A stretch of 11,386 bases of DNA. Origin: a bacterium (GTDB lineage Bacteria; UBP6; JAFGXH01). Positions within the stretch are counted from its first letter, which is position 1. Each line of letters starts with the position of its first letter. The stretch is from positions 1 to 11,386 of the forward strand of contig JAMOQH010000086.1 of NCBI GenBank assembly GCA_027064085.1, written 5' to 3'. The notes below the pieces were generated by a model. The model saw only the letters and a program-made list of their open reading frames with translations, searched no databases and was not told where the DNA came from. Both the position numbers and the translations under genes were made by a program. Positions 689-11,243 of the stretch are shown piece after piece.

Positions 689-717
689 TTGACTAAAATT
701 TTAATTATTGATAAAAT
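689..717 (+). promoter_or_regulatory. Sigma-70-like promoter of the lipoprotein/barrel/LapA operon
   Basis: TTGACT (689-694) and TAAAAT (712-717) are separated by exactly 17 bases. Transcription would begin around 723-725, about 20 bases before the ATG at 744. This placement makes the upstream in-frame ATG at 708 an impossible start, because it lies inside the promoter. Confidence 0.6.
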
Positions 718-743
718 CAAACTTAAATTTTTATGAGGTTTCA

Positions 744-2270
744 ATGAAATTAGTTTATTCACTCTTAATACTTATAATAGCCCTTTTTGTCTATTCTTGT
801 GGAGGGGGCAGTTCCTCTGAAAAATGTTCAAAAGAATCACCAAATGGTAGTTGTGATGATGGGAAGACTTGTTCACAAGGAATTTGTATATCAAAAAGTG
901 AAAAATGTTCTAATCAATATCCAAATGGTTATTGTGAAGGAGATAATACCTGCCAAAGCGGAGTCTGCGTAAGCAACAAAGCATGCTCTGAAACTGTTCC
1001 AAATGGAACTTGTGAAAACAGTTCTGAGTTTTGTGATAATGGAACTTGTAAGCCAATGATAAGTAAGTATAAAATAGGGGCTATTTCTGAAGTAATAGAT
1101 GAAAATCATAATTTAACCAAAGTATATCATTTTTATATTATGGATATTATCTTAGGAAGACATAAACACAGAATTACAAATGATGTGCAATCATGTATAA
1201 ACAAAGATAGTTGTTGGATTTCCCCTAATTATAAATATTTTTTATACCTAATAGATGCAGGGAATGGTAACTACTCATTAAAAATAGTTGATGTTCCTAA
1301 TGATTTCCAAACAAATTTTGCATCATCTGAAATAGTAACAACTAAGCTAATGGGGCAACCTTATTTTTTAAATGACGGCAAATCATTTATCTACCTAGAT
1401 ACAACAGGCCAAGTTCAAATGATAAAAAAATATAATATGGAAAATAAATCAACAAGTGATATTGCAAAATTTTCAGTTGTTAAACAAGGTCAAGATGGTG
1501 ACGGAAATCCAGTAGATTATGATCATCCTGCTGTAAATTTCACAATAAGTCCTGATAATAAAACTATGGTTTTTGATATTATGATGGACTATAGAGTTGA
1601 AAACAACCCATCTGAAATATGGAAACTAGATATAACAACTAAAGACGCTACGCCTGTTCTTATTTATAAATTCAATAAATTTAACCAAGATGGAAATGGT
1701 ATGAATTGGGGTGTTATATCACAAGATAATCAAACATTAGCTTTTATTTCAGCCGCGGGCTTACAACATAGATTACATATTGTGAATATGGATGGTAGCA
1801 GCTTAGATGAAAGCGGTGGCGACCCTGTTGGTAAAGGAGATGGTAATCCATTAGGTAAGTTTATCGGTCCTGATTATAATAGTTGTGGAAATATTGAAGG
1901 AACACAAATTTGTGATATGAAATCAGAATTATACTTCTCAAAAGATAATAATTTTTTATATTTTGCAGGAAAAGTAGGTAAATATACAGATATGTCACCT
2001 ATGATTAATCTATATAAATTTGATATTGCAAACAAAAACTTAATCCAAATTACAGATGCAAATACAGACTTAAAAGATCAACCATTACAATCAGTAGCCT
2101 TTAACATGGACACGGGAAATATTATCTATACAATAGAACAGCATGGATATTTTAAAAATTTTGAAGCATGGTACTTAGACTTAAACTCAACTGCAGCTGA
2201 TTTAGGTAAAAAACAAATAACTCAAACAAGAGAATTAAGAGAGTTGAAGCTATTTTTTTTAAAACAATAG
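744..2270 (+). CDS. Lipoprotein with three 4-Cys repeats and a TolB/WD40-like beta-propeller
   Basis: The start at 744 (508 residues) is preferred over the in-frame ATG at 708: GAGG lies five bases before it, and the protein then begins with a classical lipoprotein signal (MKLVYSLLILIIALFVYSC, lipid-anchored C19). A Gly/Ser stretch follows, then three Cys repeats at 28-48, 55-75 and 81-102, each with PNG between its first two cysteines and spacing C-x8-C-x5/6-C-x4-C. From about 108 to the end there are six PD40-like strands (ISPNYKYFLYL, LNDGKSFIYL, ISPDNKTMVF, ISQDNQTLAF, SKDNNFLYF, MDTGNIIYTI), indicating a six-bladed TolB-like propeller. This architecture suggests a binding or scaffold protein of the outer membrane or cell surface; no catalytic motif is visible. 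It is the first gene of an operon; its stop codon overlaps the ribosome binding site of the next gene. Function unknown. Confidence 0.85.
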   Translation: MKLVYSLLILIIALFVYSCGGGSSSEKCSKESPNGSCDDGKTCSQGICISKSEKCSNQYPNGYCEGDNTCQSGVCVSNKACSETVPNGTCENSSEFCDNGTCKPMISKYKIGAISEVIDENHNLTKVYHFYIMDIILGRHKHRITNDVQSCINKDSCWISPNYKYFLYLIDAGNGNYSLKIVDVPNDFQTNFASSEIVTTKLMGQPYFLNDGKSFIYLDTTGQVQMIKKYNMENKSTSDIAKFSVVKQGQDGDGNPVDYDHPAVNFTISPDNKTMVFDIMMDYRVENNPSEIWKLDITTKDATPVLIYKFNKFNQDGNGMNWGVISQDNQTLAFISAAGLQHRLHIVNMDGSSLDESGGDPVGKGDGNPLGKFIGPDYNSCGNIEGTQICDMKSELYFSKDNNFLYFAGKVGKYTDMSPMINLYKFDIANKNLIQITDANTDLKDQPLQSVAFNMDTGNIIYTIEQHGYFKNFEAWYLDLNSTAADLGKKQITQTRELRELKLFFLKQ

Positions 2271-5747: not shown

Positions 5748-5769
5748 AATAATACTTTTAAGAGGTATT

Positions 5770-7407
5770 ATGTATAAGTTTAGTTTTATTTTTTCAATAT
5801 TATTAATATTTACCCTATCATCTTGTGTTTTTGAAAGTAAAAAAAAAGAAGATTTTTGTATTTTTGATACAGATTGTGCTGGAGACAGTTTTTGTAAAGA
5901 CAGTAAATGTGAAAACTATATTGTATGCACAAATTCAAATGAATGTTCTGAAAATGAAAACTGCATAGACAACAAATGCAAAAAAAGACACTGTATGAAT
6001 GATGATGAATGTGGTCAAGACGAATACTGTTTAGATGATTTTAATTGTGTTCATATTGCTAAAAAAGATATTGGAGAGAACTGTTTAAGTTATGGTTCAT
6101 TAGAGTGCAAATCTAATCAATGTATTGCGGATGAATATAGATTTTTTTGTACTCAAAAATGCGAGAAGGATGAAGATTGCCCTAGTACAATGTTTTGTGG
6201 CAATTTTTTTGATGATGACTTAACATGTTTATATAAAGATGGCCAAGGCGATAATCAAGGAAGATATTTTTCTGATTGTAGTCTTAATGGTCAAAGTGAT
6301 TGTATGGATATTTATACTTGTGTAGAAAATATTAATAGTAAAAGTGAGGATAGATGCTTAGCAACATGTACAACAGATACAGATTGCTACCAAGGATTTA
6401 AATGTAGTATGCATACTGATTATAATTACTACTGTATTCCACCAGCAAATAAACTAACTGGTGAATTATGTAATAGATTTAATGGTTTAGAATGTAAAAA
6501 CCTTGATAATACTTGTATTAAGTTACTAGATAATCATGAAAAATTTTGCACAAAAGAATGTTTAACTGATTCTGATTGTGAAGATAACACTACTTGTAAA
6601 GAATTTAATGATAAAAAATATTGTATGCCACAAGGAAATTCAAAGCTAGGAGAATCATGTAAAAATAGTGGTACCCAAGAATGTATTGATGGATTAATTT
6701 GTGATATGACTTACCTAAGAGGTGCTATTTGCACAAAAGAATGCCAAACAGACACAGAATGCCCTAATTATCATAGTTGTACAGTTACATATAACAATGA
6801 AAAGTTATGTCGTCCTGCAGTAAATGGTTTAGGAAATAGACTTGGAGAAATAGGAACAAACTGCTATATACATGGAGATAGCGACTGTAAAGATAATTTA
6901 TTATGCCTAACCGCTTCTTTAGATGATAAAGATGCTTTTTGTACCTATCATTGTAACACAGATAGTGATTGTGATGAAAATTATCATTGTGCAAATACAG
7001 TAAAAACATCAAGTAAGCTATGCGTAAAAGGGAAAAAAGGAGAATTAGGAGCAAATTGCTACAATGAATCATGTAATGAAGGTTTATTTTGTAATATAAA
7101 ACAGTTAAATGATTATACTGCAACTTGTACAAGAACATGTGATAATATTGGAGAGCCTTGTGAAAAAGAAGGTTATTATTGTAATATGCTTGAGGAAGGT
7201 TTTAATATTTGCTTAAATAAAGAACCAGAAATTATTGGTAATTTAGGCGAAAAATGTCCTAATGGTAAGTGCATAAGTGGCTTATCATGTATTTATGATG
7301 AGAATGGTAACTTTTGTAGTAAGTCTTGTAATGATACAAATACTTGTCCTGATGGTTTTATATGTTCACAATATGATGAAAATCATAATTTTTGTTATAT
7401 TGAATAA
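5770..7407 (+). CDS. Cys-rich modular lipoprotein (three 4-Cys and seven 8-Cys modules)
   Basis: The 545-residue protein starts at an ATG four bases after AGAGG. Its signal ends in the lipobox LSSC, so C19 is lipid-anchored. The rest is almost entirely Cys modules: 69 cysteines in all, about one residue in eight. Three short modules (C30-C47, C53-C70, C75-C93) have spacing C-x5-C-x5-C-x4/5-C. Seven long modules follow (105-153, 170-222, 234-285, 297-347, 365-418, 430-481, 496-542), each with eight cysteines; a core of C-x3-C-x5-C-x5-C is unchanged in six of the seven. Inter-module linkers mostly end in a LGE/GE-type sequence before the first Cys. Such Cys ladders in exported proteins normally form disulfides and give rigid, protease-resistant rods; similar 'DxDC' repeats are known from large deltaproteobacterial surface proteins. 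No enzyme motif or CxxCH haem site was noticed. Stands alone behind its own promoter and ends three bases from the converging receptor gene. Function unknown. Confidence 0.88.
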   Translation: MYKFSFIFSILLIFTLSSCVFESKKKEDFCIFDTDCAGDSFCKDSKCENYIVCTNSNECSENENCIDNKCKKRHCMNDDECGQDEYCLDDFNCVHIAKKDIGENCLSYGSLECKSNQCIADEYRFFCTQKCEKDEDCPSTMFCGNFFDDDLTCLYKDGQGDNQGRYFSDCSLNGQSDCMDIYTCVENINSKSEDRCLATCTTDTDCYQGFKCSMHTDYNYYCIPPANKLTGELCNRFNGLECKNLDNTCIKLLDNHEKFCTKECLTDSDCEDNTTCKEFNDKKYCMPQGNSKLGESCKNSGTQECIDGLICDMTYLRGAICTKECQTDTECPNYHSCTVTYNNEKLCRPAVNGLGNRLGEIGTNCYIHGDSDCKDNLLCLTASLDDKDAFCTYHCNTDSDCDENYHCANTVKTSSKLCVKGKKGELGANCYNESCNEGLFCNIKQLNDYTATCTRTCDNIGEPCEKEGYYCNMLEEGFNICLNKEPEIIGNLGEKCPNGKCISGLSCIYDENGNFCSKSCNDTNTCPDGFICSQYDENHNFCYIE

Positions 7408-7410
7408 TAC

Positions 7411-9396
7411 TTAGAAGCGTCCATTTAATTTTAAATAATAATTTCTTCCATATTCATAAATACCACTTCCATGGTACTTATATCTTTCATTTAACATGTT
7501 TTCTACTGAAAGTGTTAATGTAAAATTACCTAAATGACTAATAGCTCCAATAGAATGAATTGCATATCCAGGAGTTCCTCCTATAGGTATTCTTGAATCT
7601 TTGATGTCTCCATTTGAGAGCCTATCTTGATTAGATGCAAAGTTCATTTTATAAAACAAAGAAAGTATATAGCTATAGTTATAAGTTATTTTAAGTATTC
7701 CTTGTAAAGGTGGAATTCTTCTCATTGGATTTAATTTTGTTTCTAAAGTTGTTTTATTAACAATTTCGTCCATTGCTCCATATACATAATTTGTATTAAA
7801 TTTAAATTCAAAAGTCTTTCTATAATTATATGATAATGTTAATTCTGTACCATAAATAAAGCCGTTATTTACATTTTCTTTCTGAACAATTTGTTTATAT
7901 TCTTCGTAGCCCGCAGGTTTATCTATTTCTTTTCTCCCTATGAACCCTTTAAGTATAGAATAATAAGCTGATACACTTATAAATAAGCCCTTAGCCTGAA
8001 ACTTATTTACCAATTCAAACATATATGAATTTTCTGCACTTAAATCTTCATTACCAAATTCATATCCTCCATTAAATTCAAAACTTCCTGTTAAATCATT
8101 TAAATTAGGTGCTCTAAATCCTTGTGCAAAATTAAGTGAAATATTATAATTTCTATTTACTTTATATTGAGTAAAAGCAGAAAAAGAAATATTATTTTTT
8201 AGATATGTTGTATCTTGTACCTCTGCCAAATAAATAAAAGTATATCTTGCTCCTAAACCAAATATTAAGTCAGAAACTTTATATTCTCCCTTAGTAAATA
8301 AAGAAAAAGTATTATAATTTGATTTATCATAATAATTTTTATCTGATCTTAAATAATCATATATAAATTCCATTCCATTATAAAATGTTAATTGGTTAAG
8401 TTTTGTTGTTGCCCTAATATTTAAACCATATTGATATAAATCATCAATTCTGTGGTCAGATAAGCTATTGTGCTTAAATCTTTTATATTCTTCATAAGTT
8501 TTTTGAAAATAAAGTGTAGAATTTATTGCAGTATTAATATTTGATAAATAATTTTTATATTTTAAGTAATAAATACCATGGTTCTGATTTGGATATTGCC
8601 TATAATCACTTCTTTTAGATTTATCTGTTCTGTATCCATCTTTTTGAGAAAAATAAGTTGCCAAAAATGTTAATTCTCCCATTTTATTGGAAATTTTGTA
8701 ATTTAATTTAGCGGTAACAGCTTTATTCTGATAAGATGTAAAATCTTGTAAACCAATATCTTCACCTGTTTCAATATTTTTATAATCATTTACTGATGTT
8801 TGAATATTAAACTTTAATTTTCCTATTTTATTGGCAATATCAGCATGTAACCCCATTGATTTTACGGCACTTTGATATCTTATAATTGCATCAGCTCTTT
8901 TTTGCATATTTTCACTACTAAAAGCAATTACTCCTCCAACTGCATCACTTCCATAAAGAGTTGGAGCCGCTCCTTTTAAAACTTCTATCTTTCCTATTAT
9001 GTTGGGGTCTAAAATTGCAGCATATTGATTTGGGCCATATCTAAAGATTGAATTATTTAATCTTATTCCATCAAAAATTAGTAAAGTATGTTGACCTGTT
9101 AACCCTCTTAAAAAGGGAGAAAGCTGACCTGCACCTGTTTGTTGTAAGTTTATAGCACTTTCTTCTAAAACAGATTTAATACTTCCTTTGTTGAGTTTTT
9201 TTATTGTTTTATTATCTATTTCTTCAATATCTCTATTATCATTAAATGTATTTTCAGTTTTTTGAACTATATTCATTTCATATTTATGAGTTTTTGTTTC
9301 TTTTTTATCTGTTTGCTTTTCTACTAATTCACTAGAAAATATGTTAATTGTTATTAAAAGTACAATGATAATTTGCTTAAATTGTCTAAAATCCAT
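7411..9396 (-). CDS. TonB-dependent outer-membrane receptor
   Basis: Complete receptor of 661 residues. I prefer the ATG at 9396, which has GGAGG four bases upstream; an in-frame ATG at 9417 (MDFYGGK) has no such site. Residues 1-21 are the signal peptide. Following the probable TonB box (about KYEMNIVQK, 39-46), the plug spans about 52-161 and shows FLRGLTGQHTLLIFDGIRLN (95-114), RYGPNQY, ILDPNIIGKIEVLKGAAPTL (128-147) and YGSDAVGGVI. The remaining residues form the 22-stranded barrel, with GFRAPNLNDL and LSAENSYMFEL near its middle and the aromatic end YYLKLNGRF. The FRAP box also occurs in haem receptors, but I see no histidine between it and the usual NPNL position, so the ligand (siderophore, haem, cobalamin, other) is undecided. 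No TonB/ExbBD or periplasmic-binding genes are in the window. Confidence 0.94.
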   Translation of the reverse strand: MDFRQFKQIIIVLLITINIFSSELVEKQTDKKETKTHKYEMNIVQKTENTFNDNRDIEEIDNKTIKKLNKGSIKSVLEESAINLQQTGAGQLSPFLRGLTGQHTLLIFDGIRLNNSIFRYGPNQYAAILDPNIIGKIEVLKGAAPTLYGSDAVGGVIAFSSENMQKRADAIIRYQSAVKSMGLHADIANKIGKLKFNIQTSVNDYKNIETGEDIGLQDFTSYQNKAVTAKLNYKISNKMGELTFLATYFSQKDGYRTDKSKRSDYRQYPNQNHGIYYLKYKNYLSNINTAINSTLYFQKTYEEYKRFKHNSLSDHRIDDLYQYGLNIRATTKLNQLTFYNGMEFIYDYLRSDKNYYDKSNYNTFSLFTKGEYKVSDLIFGLGARYTFIYLAEVQDTTYLKNNISFSAFTQYKVNRNYNISLNFAQGFRAPNLNDLTGSFEFNGGYEFGNEDLSAENSYMFELVNKFQAKGLFISVSAYYSILKGFIGRKEIDKPAGYEEYKQIVQKENVNNGFIYGTELTLSYNYRKTFEFKFNTNYVYGAMDEIVNKTTLETKLNPMRRIPPLQGILKITYNYSYILSLFYKMNFASNQDRLSNGDIKDSRIPIGGTPGYAIHSIGAISHLGNFTLTLSVENMLNERYKYHGSGIYEYGRNYYLKLNGRF

Positions 9397-9422
9397 TTTA
9401 CCTCCATAAAAATCCATTTTAC
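9388..9422. repeat. 14-bp direct repeat duplicating the receptor's start region
   Basis: The 14-base string AAAATCCATTTTAC occurs exactly at 9388-9401 and 9409-9422, a period of 21 bases. On the coding strand each copy holds GTAAAATGGATTTT, an ATG with its surroundings, in the same frame. Only the inner copy has a GGAGG ribosome binding site ahead of it. Confidence 0.85.
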
Positions 9423-9524: not shown

Positions 9525-9977
9525 ATGAAAATTCGCCATTATTTATTTAAATATGGTCTAAATTTATGGACTCCATATCTTGGAGCAGGTGTAAAAATAG
9601 AATATATAAAAAAAGATTTTAAAGAAATTAAAGTTTCAATGAAATTAAAGTTTTACAATAAAAATATTATGCATACTCACTTTGGTGGTAGTTTATACTC
9701 TATGGTTGACCCTCATATTATGTTAATGTTAATGGAATTATTAGGAAAAGAGTATATAGTTTGGGACAAAAGTGCAACTATTGATTTTATAAAACCAGGT
9801 AAAACTAAAGTTCAAGCTATTATGAATATATCAGATGACTTATTAACAGAAATTAAAGAAAAAACAAAAAATGGAGAAAAATACTTACCTGAATTTAACA
9901 TAAATATTACAGATGAAAATCAAAATATAGTAGCAAAAGTAAAAAAGGTTCTTTATATTAAAAAAAAGTTAAAATAG
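9525..9977 (+). CDS. DUF4442 hotdog-fold protein, thioesterase-like
   Basis: The 150-residue protein fits the DUF4442 family (hotdog fold, related to PaaI/YiiD-type thioesterases) over its length: LWTPYLGAGVKIEYIKKDFK (14-33), the helix-starting loop THFGGSLYSMVDP (51-63), then GKEYIVWDKSATIDFIKPGK (74-93) and the closing strand VAKVKKVLYIKKKLK. FGGS plus the VDP helix corresponds to the central hotdog helix; VWDK is a family hallmark. Members are presumed to act on acyl-CoA or acyl-ACP thioesters, but substrates are mostly unknown. No signal peptide, so cytosolic. AGAGGA is four bases before the ATG. Its last nine bases overlap the end of the convergent radical SAM-Nudix gene. Confidence 0.88.
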   Translation: MKIRHYLFKYGLNLWTPYLGAGVKIEYIKKDFKEIKVSMKLKFYNKNIMHTHFGGSLYSMVDPHIMLMLMELLGKEYIVWDKSATIDFIKPGKTKVQAIMNISDDLLTEIKEKTKNGEKYLPEFNINITDENQNIVAKVKKVLYIKKKLK

Positions 9978-11243
9978 CAATTTATCTATAGCTATTAATA
10001 ATATTTTAGCATGATCAAAAGCAATTCCATCAGATTCTATTATTTTATATTCTATTTTTTCACCTATCAATGTATTTGTAGTGATTTTATCAACTAAAGC
10101 ATATAAAACTATATCTGAATTTGATAATTTAAGTTTATTTCTCTCTTTTTTAATATTTTCATTTTTAAATTCATCAGTTGTTACATCAAATTTCTGTAAA
10201 TTTATATTAAATAACTTAGCATCTATTGCATCTTCTCCAAACTGTAATGAAATATTTTTTGTATCAGTAATACCAACAAATGCAGTAGAAACTATCCAAG
10301 CTCTTGGATCTCTGTTAGGTTCACTAAATACCTGCAATTGATTTAATAAAATATTACTCACTCCAGCTTCTTCACTTAATTCTCTATAAGCTGCAATTTC
10401 AACAGATTCTTCAGGTTGTACAAATCCACCAAGTAAAGCCCAATTATTCATATATGGATGTTCGCCTCTTTTAATTAAAACAACAGAAAATTCTTTAATT
10501 TCAATGCTTTTTATCTCCATAGAGTATTTATAGTCATTTAACGCAAATAATATTATATCAGTTGCTAAAGAAGGCCTTTCATATTCTTCTATATTATAAA
10601 CTTTTAAAAATTCTTTTTCACCTGTAGAATAAATTTTGGCTTTATTATAAAGTTTAACTAGTTCTTTTTTAGCATCATCAGAGTAAAATAGAGGGATTAC
10701 TCCATTAATATAATCAGAACCTCTATTTGTTAAGTAAATTCTTTTTTCTTTTATCTCCATTAGTTTATTTTCTACAACAAACTTAATTTCATCTTTAAAG
10801 TAATCAAGAAAATCAATAACTCTCTTAGTTAAATAATCACTAGTTCCATAATCATTTTTTATTTTACTAAAAGTATTTTTACCAACATTAGCCATATATC
10901 CATTTTTAGTTAACAACTTGTATGCTAAACGATATTGTCTAATTATTTGATATAAAGATACTCCACCTGCTTCTTTTTCAATTTTTGTTCCCTTGTATCT
11001 ATTACGATAAAGAGTTATATGATCAGGAGCCAAATTAATTGCATATAAAATAGTATTTTCAAAATCTTCATCATTTTGATGTAAAAATCCATACATAAGA
11101 TCAACATTAAAGCTGTTAAAACCAGATTTTCTAATATTATCTCTTGCTCTTTCATAAATATGAGTTGTCCCCTCACGACCTAAATCATTAAGAAGCTTTT
11201 CTGAAATAGTTTGAATTCCCATACTTATTCTTCTATAGCCCAT
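9969..11243 (-). CDS. HemW-like radical SAM/Nudix fusion protein, 3' part after a frameshift
   Basis: The 424 residues read from the ATG at 11243 are not a complete protein. Residues 1-141 are the middle of a HemW-like (oxygen-independent coproporphyrinogen oxidase family) radical SAM barrel: YRRISMGIQTISEKLLNDLG, then FNVDLMYGFLHQ and PDHITLYR. Homologous sequence preceding the ATG continues in another frame (11258-11386), and that ATG has no ribosome binding site, so it is not a true start. Residues 142-185 look like the C-terminal winged-helix part (EIKFVVENKLMEI, IYLTNRGSDYINGV), but most of the stretch normally before it is missing. The second domain (about 225-424) is a Nudix hydrolase with a perfect Nudix box G-x5-E-x7-REL-x-EE-x-GV (G273-V295) and FDHAKILLIAIDKL at the end, so this half could still be active on a nucleotide diphosphate. 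Probably a damaged gene, or an intact one with sequence errors. Confidence 0.75.
   Translation of the reverse strand: MGYRRISMGIQTISEKLLNDLGREGTTHIYERARDNIRKSGFNSFNVDLMYGFLHQNDEDFENTILYAINLAPDHITLYRNRYKGTKIEKEAGGVSLYQIIRQYRLAYKLLTKNGYMANVGKNTFSKIKNDYGTSDYLTKRVIDFLDYFKDEIKFVVENKLMEIKEKRIYLTNRGSDYINGVIPLFYSDDAKKELVKLYNKAKIYSTGEKEFLKVYNIEEYERPSLATDIILFALNDYKYSMEIKSIEIKEFSVVLIKRGEHPYMNNWALLGGFVQPEESVEIAAYRELSEEAGVSNILLNQLQVFSEPNRDPRAWIVSTAFVGITDTKNISLQFGEDAIDAKLFNINLQKFDVTTDEFKNENIKKERNKLKLSNSDIVLYALVDKITTNTLIGEKIEYKIIESDGIAFDHAKILLIAIDKLLF

Follow-up and report, generated by a model that had tools for sequence, protein, structure and literature searches.

The lipoprotein gene at positions 5770–7407 (forward strand) of the window, i.e. 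the whole 11,386-nt stretch of DNA that was analysed, may encode a disulfide-stapled, membrane-anchored rod for binding or contact at the cell envelope; judging from sequence, we put this reading at slightly below even odds (∼45%). The repeated 8-Cys module of its product is filed here as a putative uncatalogued family of bacterial Cys modules, widespread and nameless in the libraries searched.

Layout of the Cys-rich lipoprotein

The ORF has a Shine–Dalgarno-like sequence, AAGAGG, 5′ of its ATG (5760–5765; this and all features of the gene given below are on the forward strand). It encodes a protein of 545 aa that starts with MYKFSFIFSILLIFTLSSC, has 69 Cys (13%) and carries a net charge of −43. 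The product had been described as a lipoprotein from the DNA letters, and the claim holds: the signal peptide (5770–5826) ends with LSSC at residues 16–19, behind a hydrophobic stretch, which by inspection fits the lipobox pattern [LVI][ASTVI][GAS]C with Cys19 as the residue to be lipidated. The lipobox makes the protein extracytoplasmic rather than intracellular; from this lipobox, with Val and not Asp as the +2 residue, we infer an outer-membrane and surface location.

Apart from Cys19 of the lipobox, 12 Cys fall into three short 4-Cys units and 56 into seven modules of exactly eight Cys each, so that the counts given in the preliminary description are exact. Translation and Cys-gap analysis delimit the short units S1 (C30–C47; 5857–5910), S2 (C53–C70; 5926–5979) and S3 (C75–C93; 5992–6048), with the spacing C-x5-C-x5-C-x4/5-C. 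The same evidence, together with a module profile, delimits M1 (C105–C153; 6082–6228), M2 (C170–C222; 6277–6435), M3 (C234–C285; 6469–6624), M4 (C297–C347; 6658–6810), M5 (C365–C418; 6862–7023), M6 (C430–C481; 7057–7212) and M7 (C496–C542; 7255–7395). The core C-x3-C-x5-C-x5-C is found in six of the seven modules, the exception being M6 (x3-x6-x6), and Cys1 and Cys2 are separated by x7 in M1–M5 and by x4 in M6 and M7; both regularities had been noted before. The recurrent ‘LGE/GE’ said to precede Cys1 is a fair if loose wording: Gly does occupy position −3 in six of the seven modules, but GE is present in four only.

The period of eight Cys is far beyond chance. The core motif was counted six times, compared with a mean of 0.025 and a maximum of 2 in 5000 sequence shuffles. 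The autocorrelation of Cys gaps is highest at lag 8 (0.81), and the gap-column variance is 4.3 (minimum of 32 in 20,000 permutations). No CxxC, CC or metal-cluster motif is present in the protein sequence; a metal-cluster reading was rejected since CxxC and CC are missing.

The four-Cys unit and its predicted fold

The long module had been taken as the unit of the array, with the short units resembling its second half. The resemblance is borne out by profile comparison: the short units are closer to the second half-module (probability 81%) than to the first (44%), while the two halves match each other with a probability of 75%. Protein L038 of the same genome, a lipoprotein frame of 112 codons, has three consecutive 4-Cys units, and L077 contains a long tandem run of such units, mostly joined by x3 like the half-module junctions of the target. 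Because of these profile links and architectures, the basic unit is better read as four Cys (C-x5/7-C-x5-C-xn-C) and the 8-Cys module, regular as it is, as a doublet. At the centre of C2-x5-C3, 20 of 27 units have G, N or D, residues that a tight turn would favour.

For two adjacent modules, M4–M5, the kind of model that the preliminary description had called for, AlphaFold2 with a 15-row alignment gave pLDDT 80.9 and pTM 0.55, with strands near Cys3 and Cys4 in each half; the full-length model was poor (pLDDT 61.2, pTM 0.30). Each 4-Cys unit is predicted on this basis to be a two-strand hairpin. VIA-align of the two-module model, whose rows we take as proof of neither a fold nor its absence, ranked PcTx1 highest (Z 3.8; 35 residues at 1.9 Å), with lower scores for EETI-II (Z 2.3–2.4), colipase (2.4) and Dkk1 (2.1–2.2). 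In Foldseek the lowest E-value was 0.29, for MIT1, followed by Dkk4 (0.31). Matches this weak would indicate no more than a fold type.

The frame of the unit appears to fit the two-disulfide hairpin (DDH), judged against what we take to be the DDH consensus spacing. Written as C-x5/7-C-x2-[G/N/D]-x2-C-xn-C, it is compatible with knottin and DDH peptides (PcTx1, EETI-II and DDH toxins), which carry a hairpin on Cys3 and Cys4 where one is predicted for the target. Those peptides are short, free and from animals or plants, whereas the target is tandem, lipid-anchored and bacterial, and convergence is likely. Colipase, prokineticin (MIT1) and Dickkopf are compact Cys domains similar in size to the module and are among the best Foldseek matches; however, no family cut-off was reached, Z-values in VIA-align were 2.1–2.4, and these domains presumably have ten Cys against the eight of the module. 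DDH is treated in the literature jointly with the inhibitor cystine knot (PMC4942781). Since that source gives the pairing in two mutually inconsistent ways, we claim no connectivity for the units of the target.

Machinery for disulfide formation, which had been suggested as a check, is present: the genome encodes four proteins with a total of nine DsbA domains over the cut-off; four of these domains stand in tandem in one protein, and another protein is a VKOR–DsbA fusion. A LolCE homologue was also detected (TIGR02212 lolCE, E 2e-80; its 270.8 bits are under the equivalog cut-off of 362). VKOR/DsbA and the LolCE homologue together make Cys oxidation and lipoprotein release plausible.

The gene for the protein with four tandem DsbA domains and four CPFC sites (953 codons; L055:1479–4340, G000:C40) adjoins that of an EGF-like Cys-rich lipoprotein. 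Its counterpart in genome G002 has 939 codons and four DsbA matches; ORFs of ∼650 codons with two or three occur in further genomes of the target's phylum. Two lipoproteins (L057:1738–3546 and L056:1246–3321) have two DsbA domains each with other sequence between them, the former encoded next to a LolCE-like permease. The poly-DsbA proteins hint that a Cys-rich set of envelope proteins has an oxidative-folding line of its own.

Conservation and distribution of the module

Among 99 genomes of the same and other phyla, full-length relatives were found in only two others, G001 (JAFGXH010000116.1) and G002 (DYRY01000029.1), both of the same GTDB family as the target genome. Both orthologs are 44% identical to the target. 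The G001 ortholog is complete and has 69 Cys, the same plan of three units and seven modules and a lipobox-like LFLGC; the G002 gene runs off the end of its contig, and the short units are absent from the part present. No shared synteny was observed in the stretches read around the three genes. The habitats of both orthologs seem to be sulfidic (Zodletone spring and a sulfidic cave, as inferred from record titles), which is odd for a disulfide-rich envelope, as sulfide would attack disulfides.

Cys spacing had been said to persist while the sequences diverged, and comparison with the G001 ortholog agrees: 57 of 68 gaps are equal, while the modules are 38% identical outside their Cys. Scores of position-matched modules across two genera rank 1 of 5040 permutations, and modules cluster by position in a tree (with few columns and many weak forks). 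Module identity is tied to position across genera, so the seven modules predate the split of the two genera and have not been homogenised since; on this comparison the array is an old one that has stayed fixed. The proposed growth by duplication is thus true in origin, as the modules are related, but it is not ongoing. The linkers M4–M5 (AVNGLGNRLGEI; 6817–6852) and M6–M7 are 58% and 67% identical to the G001 ortholog, as against 27–45% for module non-Cys residues, although these values come from stretches of only 12 and 9 residues, respectively. Fixed module identity and the better conservation of the two linkers argue against a mere envelope spacer.

The profile search that the preliminary description had outlined shows the module in no fewer than three bacterial phyla, namely its own and those of genomes G290 and G055. 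In its own genome the module profile also detected L036 (497 codons, 69 Cys), the subtilase L037 and L038. The 4-Cys profile added many more Cys-rich proteins, including L067 (at least 97 Cys), L077 (114 Cys) and L078 (at least 90 Cys); the genome-wide census gives a minimum number of such proteins.

All five genomes sampled from the small G290 phylum have a lipoprotein of ∼525 aa (L133–L137) which, like the target, combines a lipobox with seven 8-Cys modules, and is ∼26% identical to it (E ∼1e-21). It differs in having one 4-Cys unit instead of three and modules without one-to-one match: position-matched scores ranked 3060 of 5040, so that positional orthology of the two arrays is unsupported. 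The two arrays may therefore have arrived at seven modules independently, or an original correspondence may have been lost. In two of these loci (L134:4716–6038 and L137:910–2394) the seven-module gene comes after a lipoprotein gene whose product has a stretch resembling a cytochrome, CANCH or NCLNCH, with a CxxCH heme-type motif.

In the G055 phylum the module was detected in 99 of 193 sampled genomes (E 1e-7). There it occurs in arrays of 600–720 codons (L139, L140 and L144), behind a metalloprotease domain (L145) and in single-module lipoproteins with frames of 140–185 codons (L141–L143 and L147), of which it is the only evident folded part. Overall, modules follow subtilase, trypsin or metalloprotease domains on the C-terminal side in L037, L046, L091 and L145. 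The single-module lipoproteins and the protease-attached modules suggest that the module does something itself. In the subtilases L037 and L046 the Cys modules follow the catalytic domain. The tail of L037 (SCS, a hydrophobic stretch and RKK) resembles a sorting tag; its assignment as MYXO-CTERM was unsupported by the MYXO-CTERM model.

With respect to named families, the whole protein gave no Pfam match at E up to 1, and none in NCBIfam, PDB sequences, viral contigs or plasmids. On single modules the lowest E-values for Prokineticin (PF06607), Dickkopf_N (PF04706) and WAP (PF00095) were 0.0028, 0.017 and 0.053, respectively, none over the gathering score. No Pfam or NCBIfam model exceeded its cut-off on the module arrays tested. 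Targeted searches of open-access literature returned no description of the module, an absence that is not proof that none exists. With the module spread over three phyla, and over about half of the 193 genomes sampled from one of them, but covered by no Pfam or NCBIfam model, many of its proteins are probably unnamed.

Possible functions

If the array is a binding or contact rod, its mature part would consist of 17 four-Cys units, three short ones near the membrane and fourteen fused pairwise into seven modules. Each unit would be a small two-strand hairpin with two disulfide staples and a knottin-type core, and the chain a rod-like string of rigid, proteolysis-resistant beads. The VKOR/DsbA system would oxidise the Cys outside the cytoplasm, and a Lol-type transporter would hand on the lipoprotein, with the outer membrane as its probable destination. 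There S1–S3 could serve as a stalk, while loops of the modules might bind a ligand, be it a polymer, a partner protein or another cell. Neither a ligand nor a partner nor a conserved neighbour gene emerged from the stretches read in the three genomes. A wider version, in which tandem two-disulfide hairpin doublets form a modular recognition scaffold on the envelope of at least three phyla and each module is selected for its own ligand contact, we regard as doubtful. Should the arrays bind partners, bacteria would have in them a counterpart to the EGF, WAP or Dickkopf ectodomains of animals, and the arrays might be useful as stable scaffolds.

The array could, somewhat less probably still, be a passive stalk that only sets the distance between the membrane and something else. 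Such a rigid-stalk role was proposed for the Cys-rich repeat region of Myxococcus TraA (PMC3325183). Four-Cys units lie stalk-like between a lipobox and other sequence in L075 and, within the window, in the lipoprotein ORF at 708–2270 (forward strand), where three related units (822–1052; 4-Cys profile, E 1.6e-7 to 5.9e-6) precede a PD40/WD40-like region (PD40 by Pfam). However, the target has no terminal head domain, and a pure spacer explains less well why the identity of all seven modules is fixed across genera and why single-module lipoproteins exist elsewhere; the two linkers more conserved than the modules also speak against it. The ORF at 708–2270 as a whole follows a stalk-and-head plan.

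The target and the TraA repeats (TIGR04201, Myxo_Cys_RPT) are both tandem Cys-rich repeats, bacterial and envelope-anchored, and by analogy the target would work like the TraA repeat region, yet it is no TIGR04201 member by model. That model matches other proteins of the target's genome and phylum, but not the target: the whole protein had no match at E up to 1, and only one of 21 modules matched at E 0.05. Neither the PA14 head nor the MYXO-CTERM anchor of TraA (PMC3325183) is present in the target; TIGR03901 (MYXO-CTERM) had no match in G000, G001 or G002, and the target has a lipobox instead.

It is unlikely that the protein is a multi-headed protease inhibitor or protease-handling protein whose knottin-like modules block or dock secreted proteases, in self-protection or in defence against predators. 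Modules are fused to secreted proteases in several phyla, and weak matches were obtained to potato carboxypeptidase inhibitor (E 0.024), WAP, squash inhibitors and EETI-II. Still, every such match is under the family cut-off and covers mainly the Cys frame, a kind of frame that recurs by convergence, and no conserved reactive-loop residue was seen.

Position-specific conservation would fit a scaffold for other envelope proteins, too. Surface lipoproteins serve some TonB-dependent receptors, and an ORF for a heme-type TonB receptor (7411–9417) adjoins the target gene. A role in an outer-membrane complex, be it as scaffold or as accessory lipoprotein and perhaps with this receptor as partner, nevertheless seems improbable, as the two genes are convergent and not co-transcribed, and the stretches read around the orthologs in G001 and G002 revealed no recognisable TonB receptor. 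A metal or thiol sink (metallothionein-like or a sulfide-reactive Cys store) could draw on the high Cys content and the seemingly sulfidic sites of both orthologs, but is very improbable given the lack of CC and CxxC, the predicted hairpin fold and an extracytoplasmic protein (by its lipobox) in a genome with oxidising apparatus.

Elsewhere in the window, the reverse-strand ORF at 9969–11243 fuses the C-terminal part of a radical SAM (HemN-like) protein to a NUDIX/NtrR-like part; positions 1–100 of the radical SAM profile are missing, and the ORF lies near the contig end.
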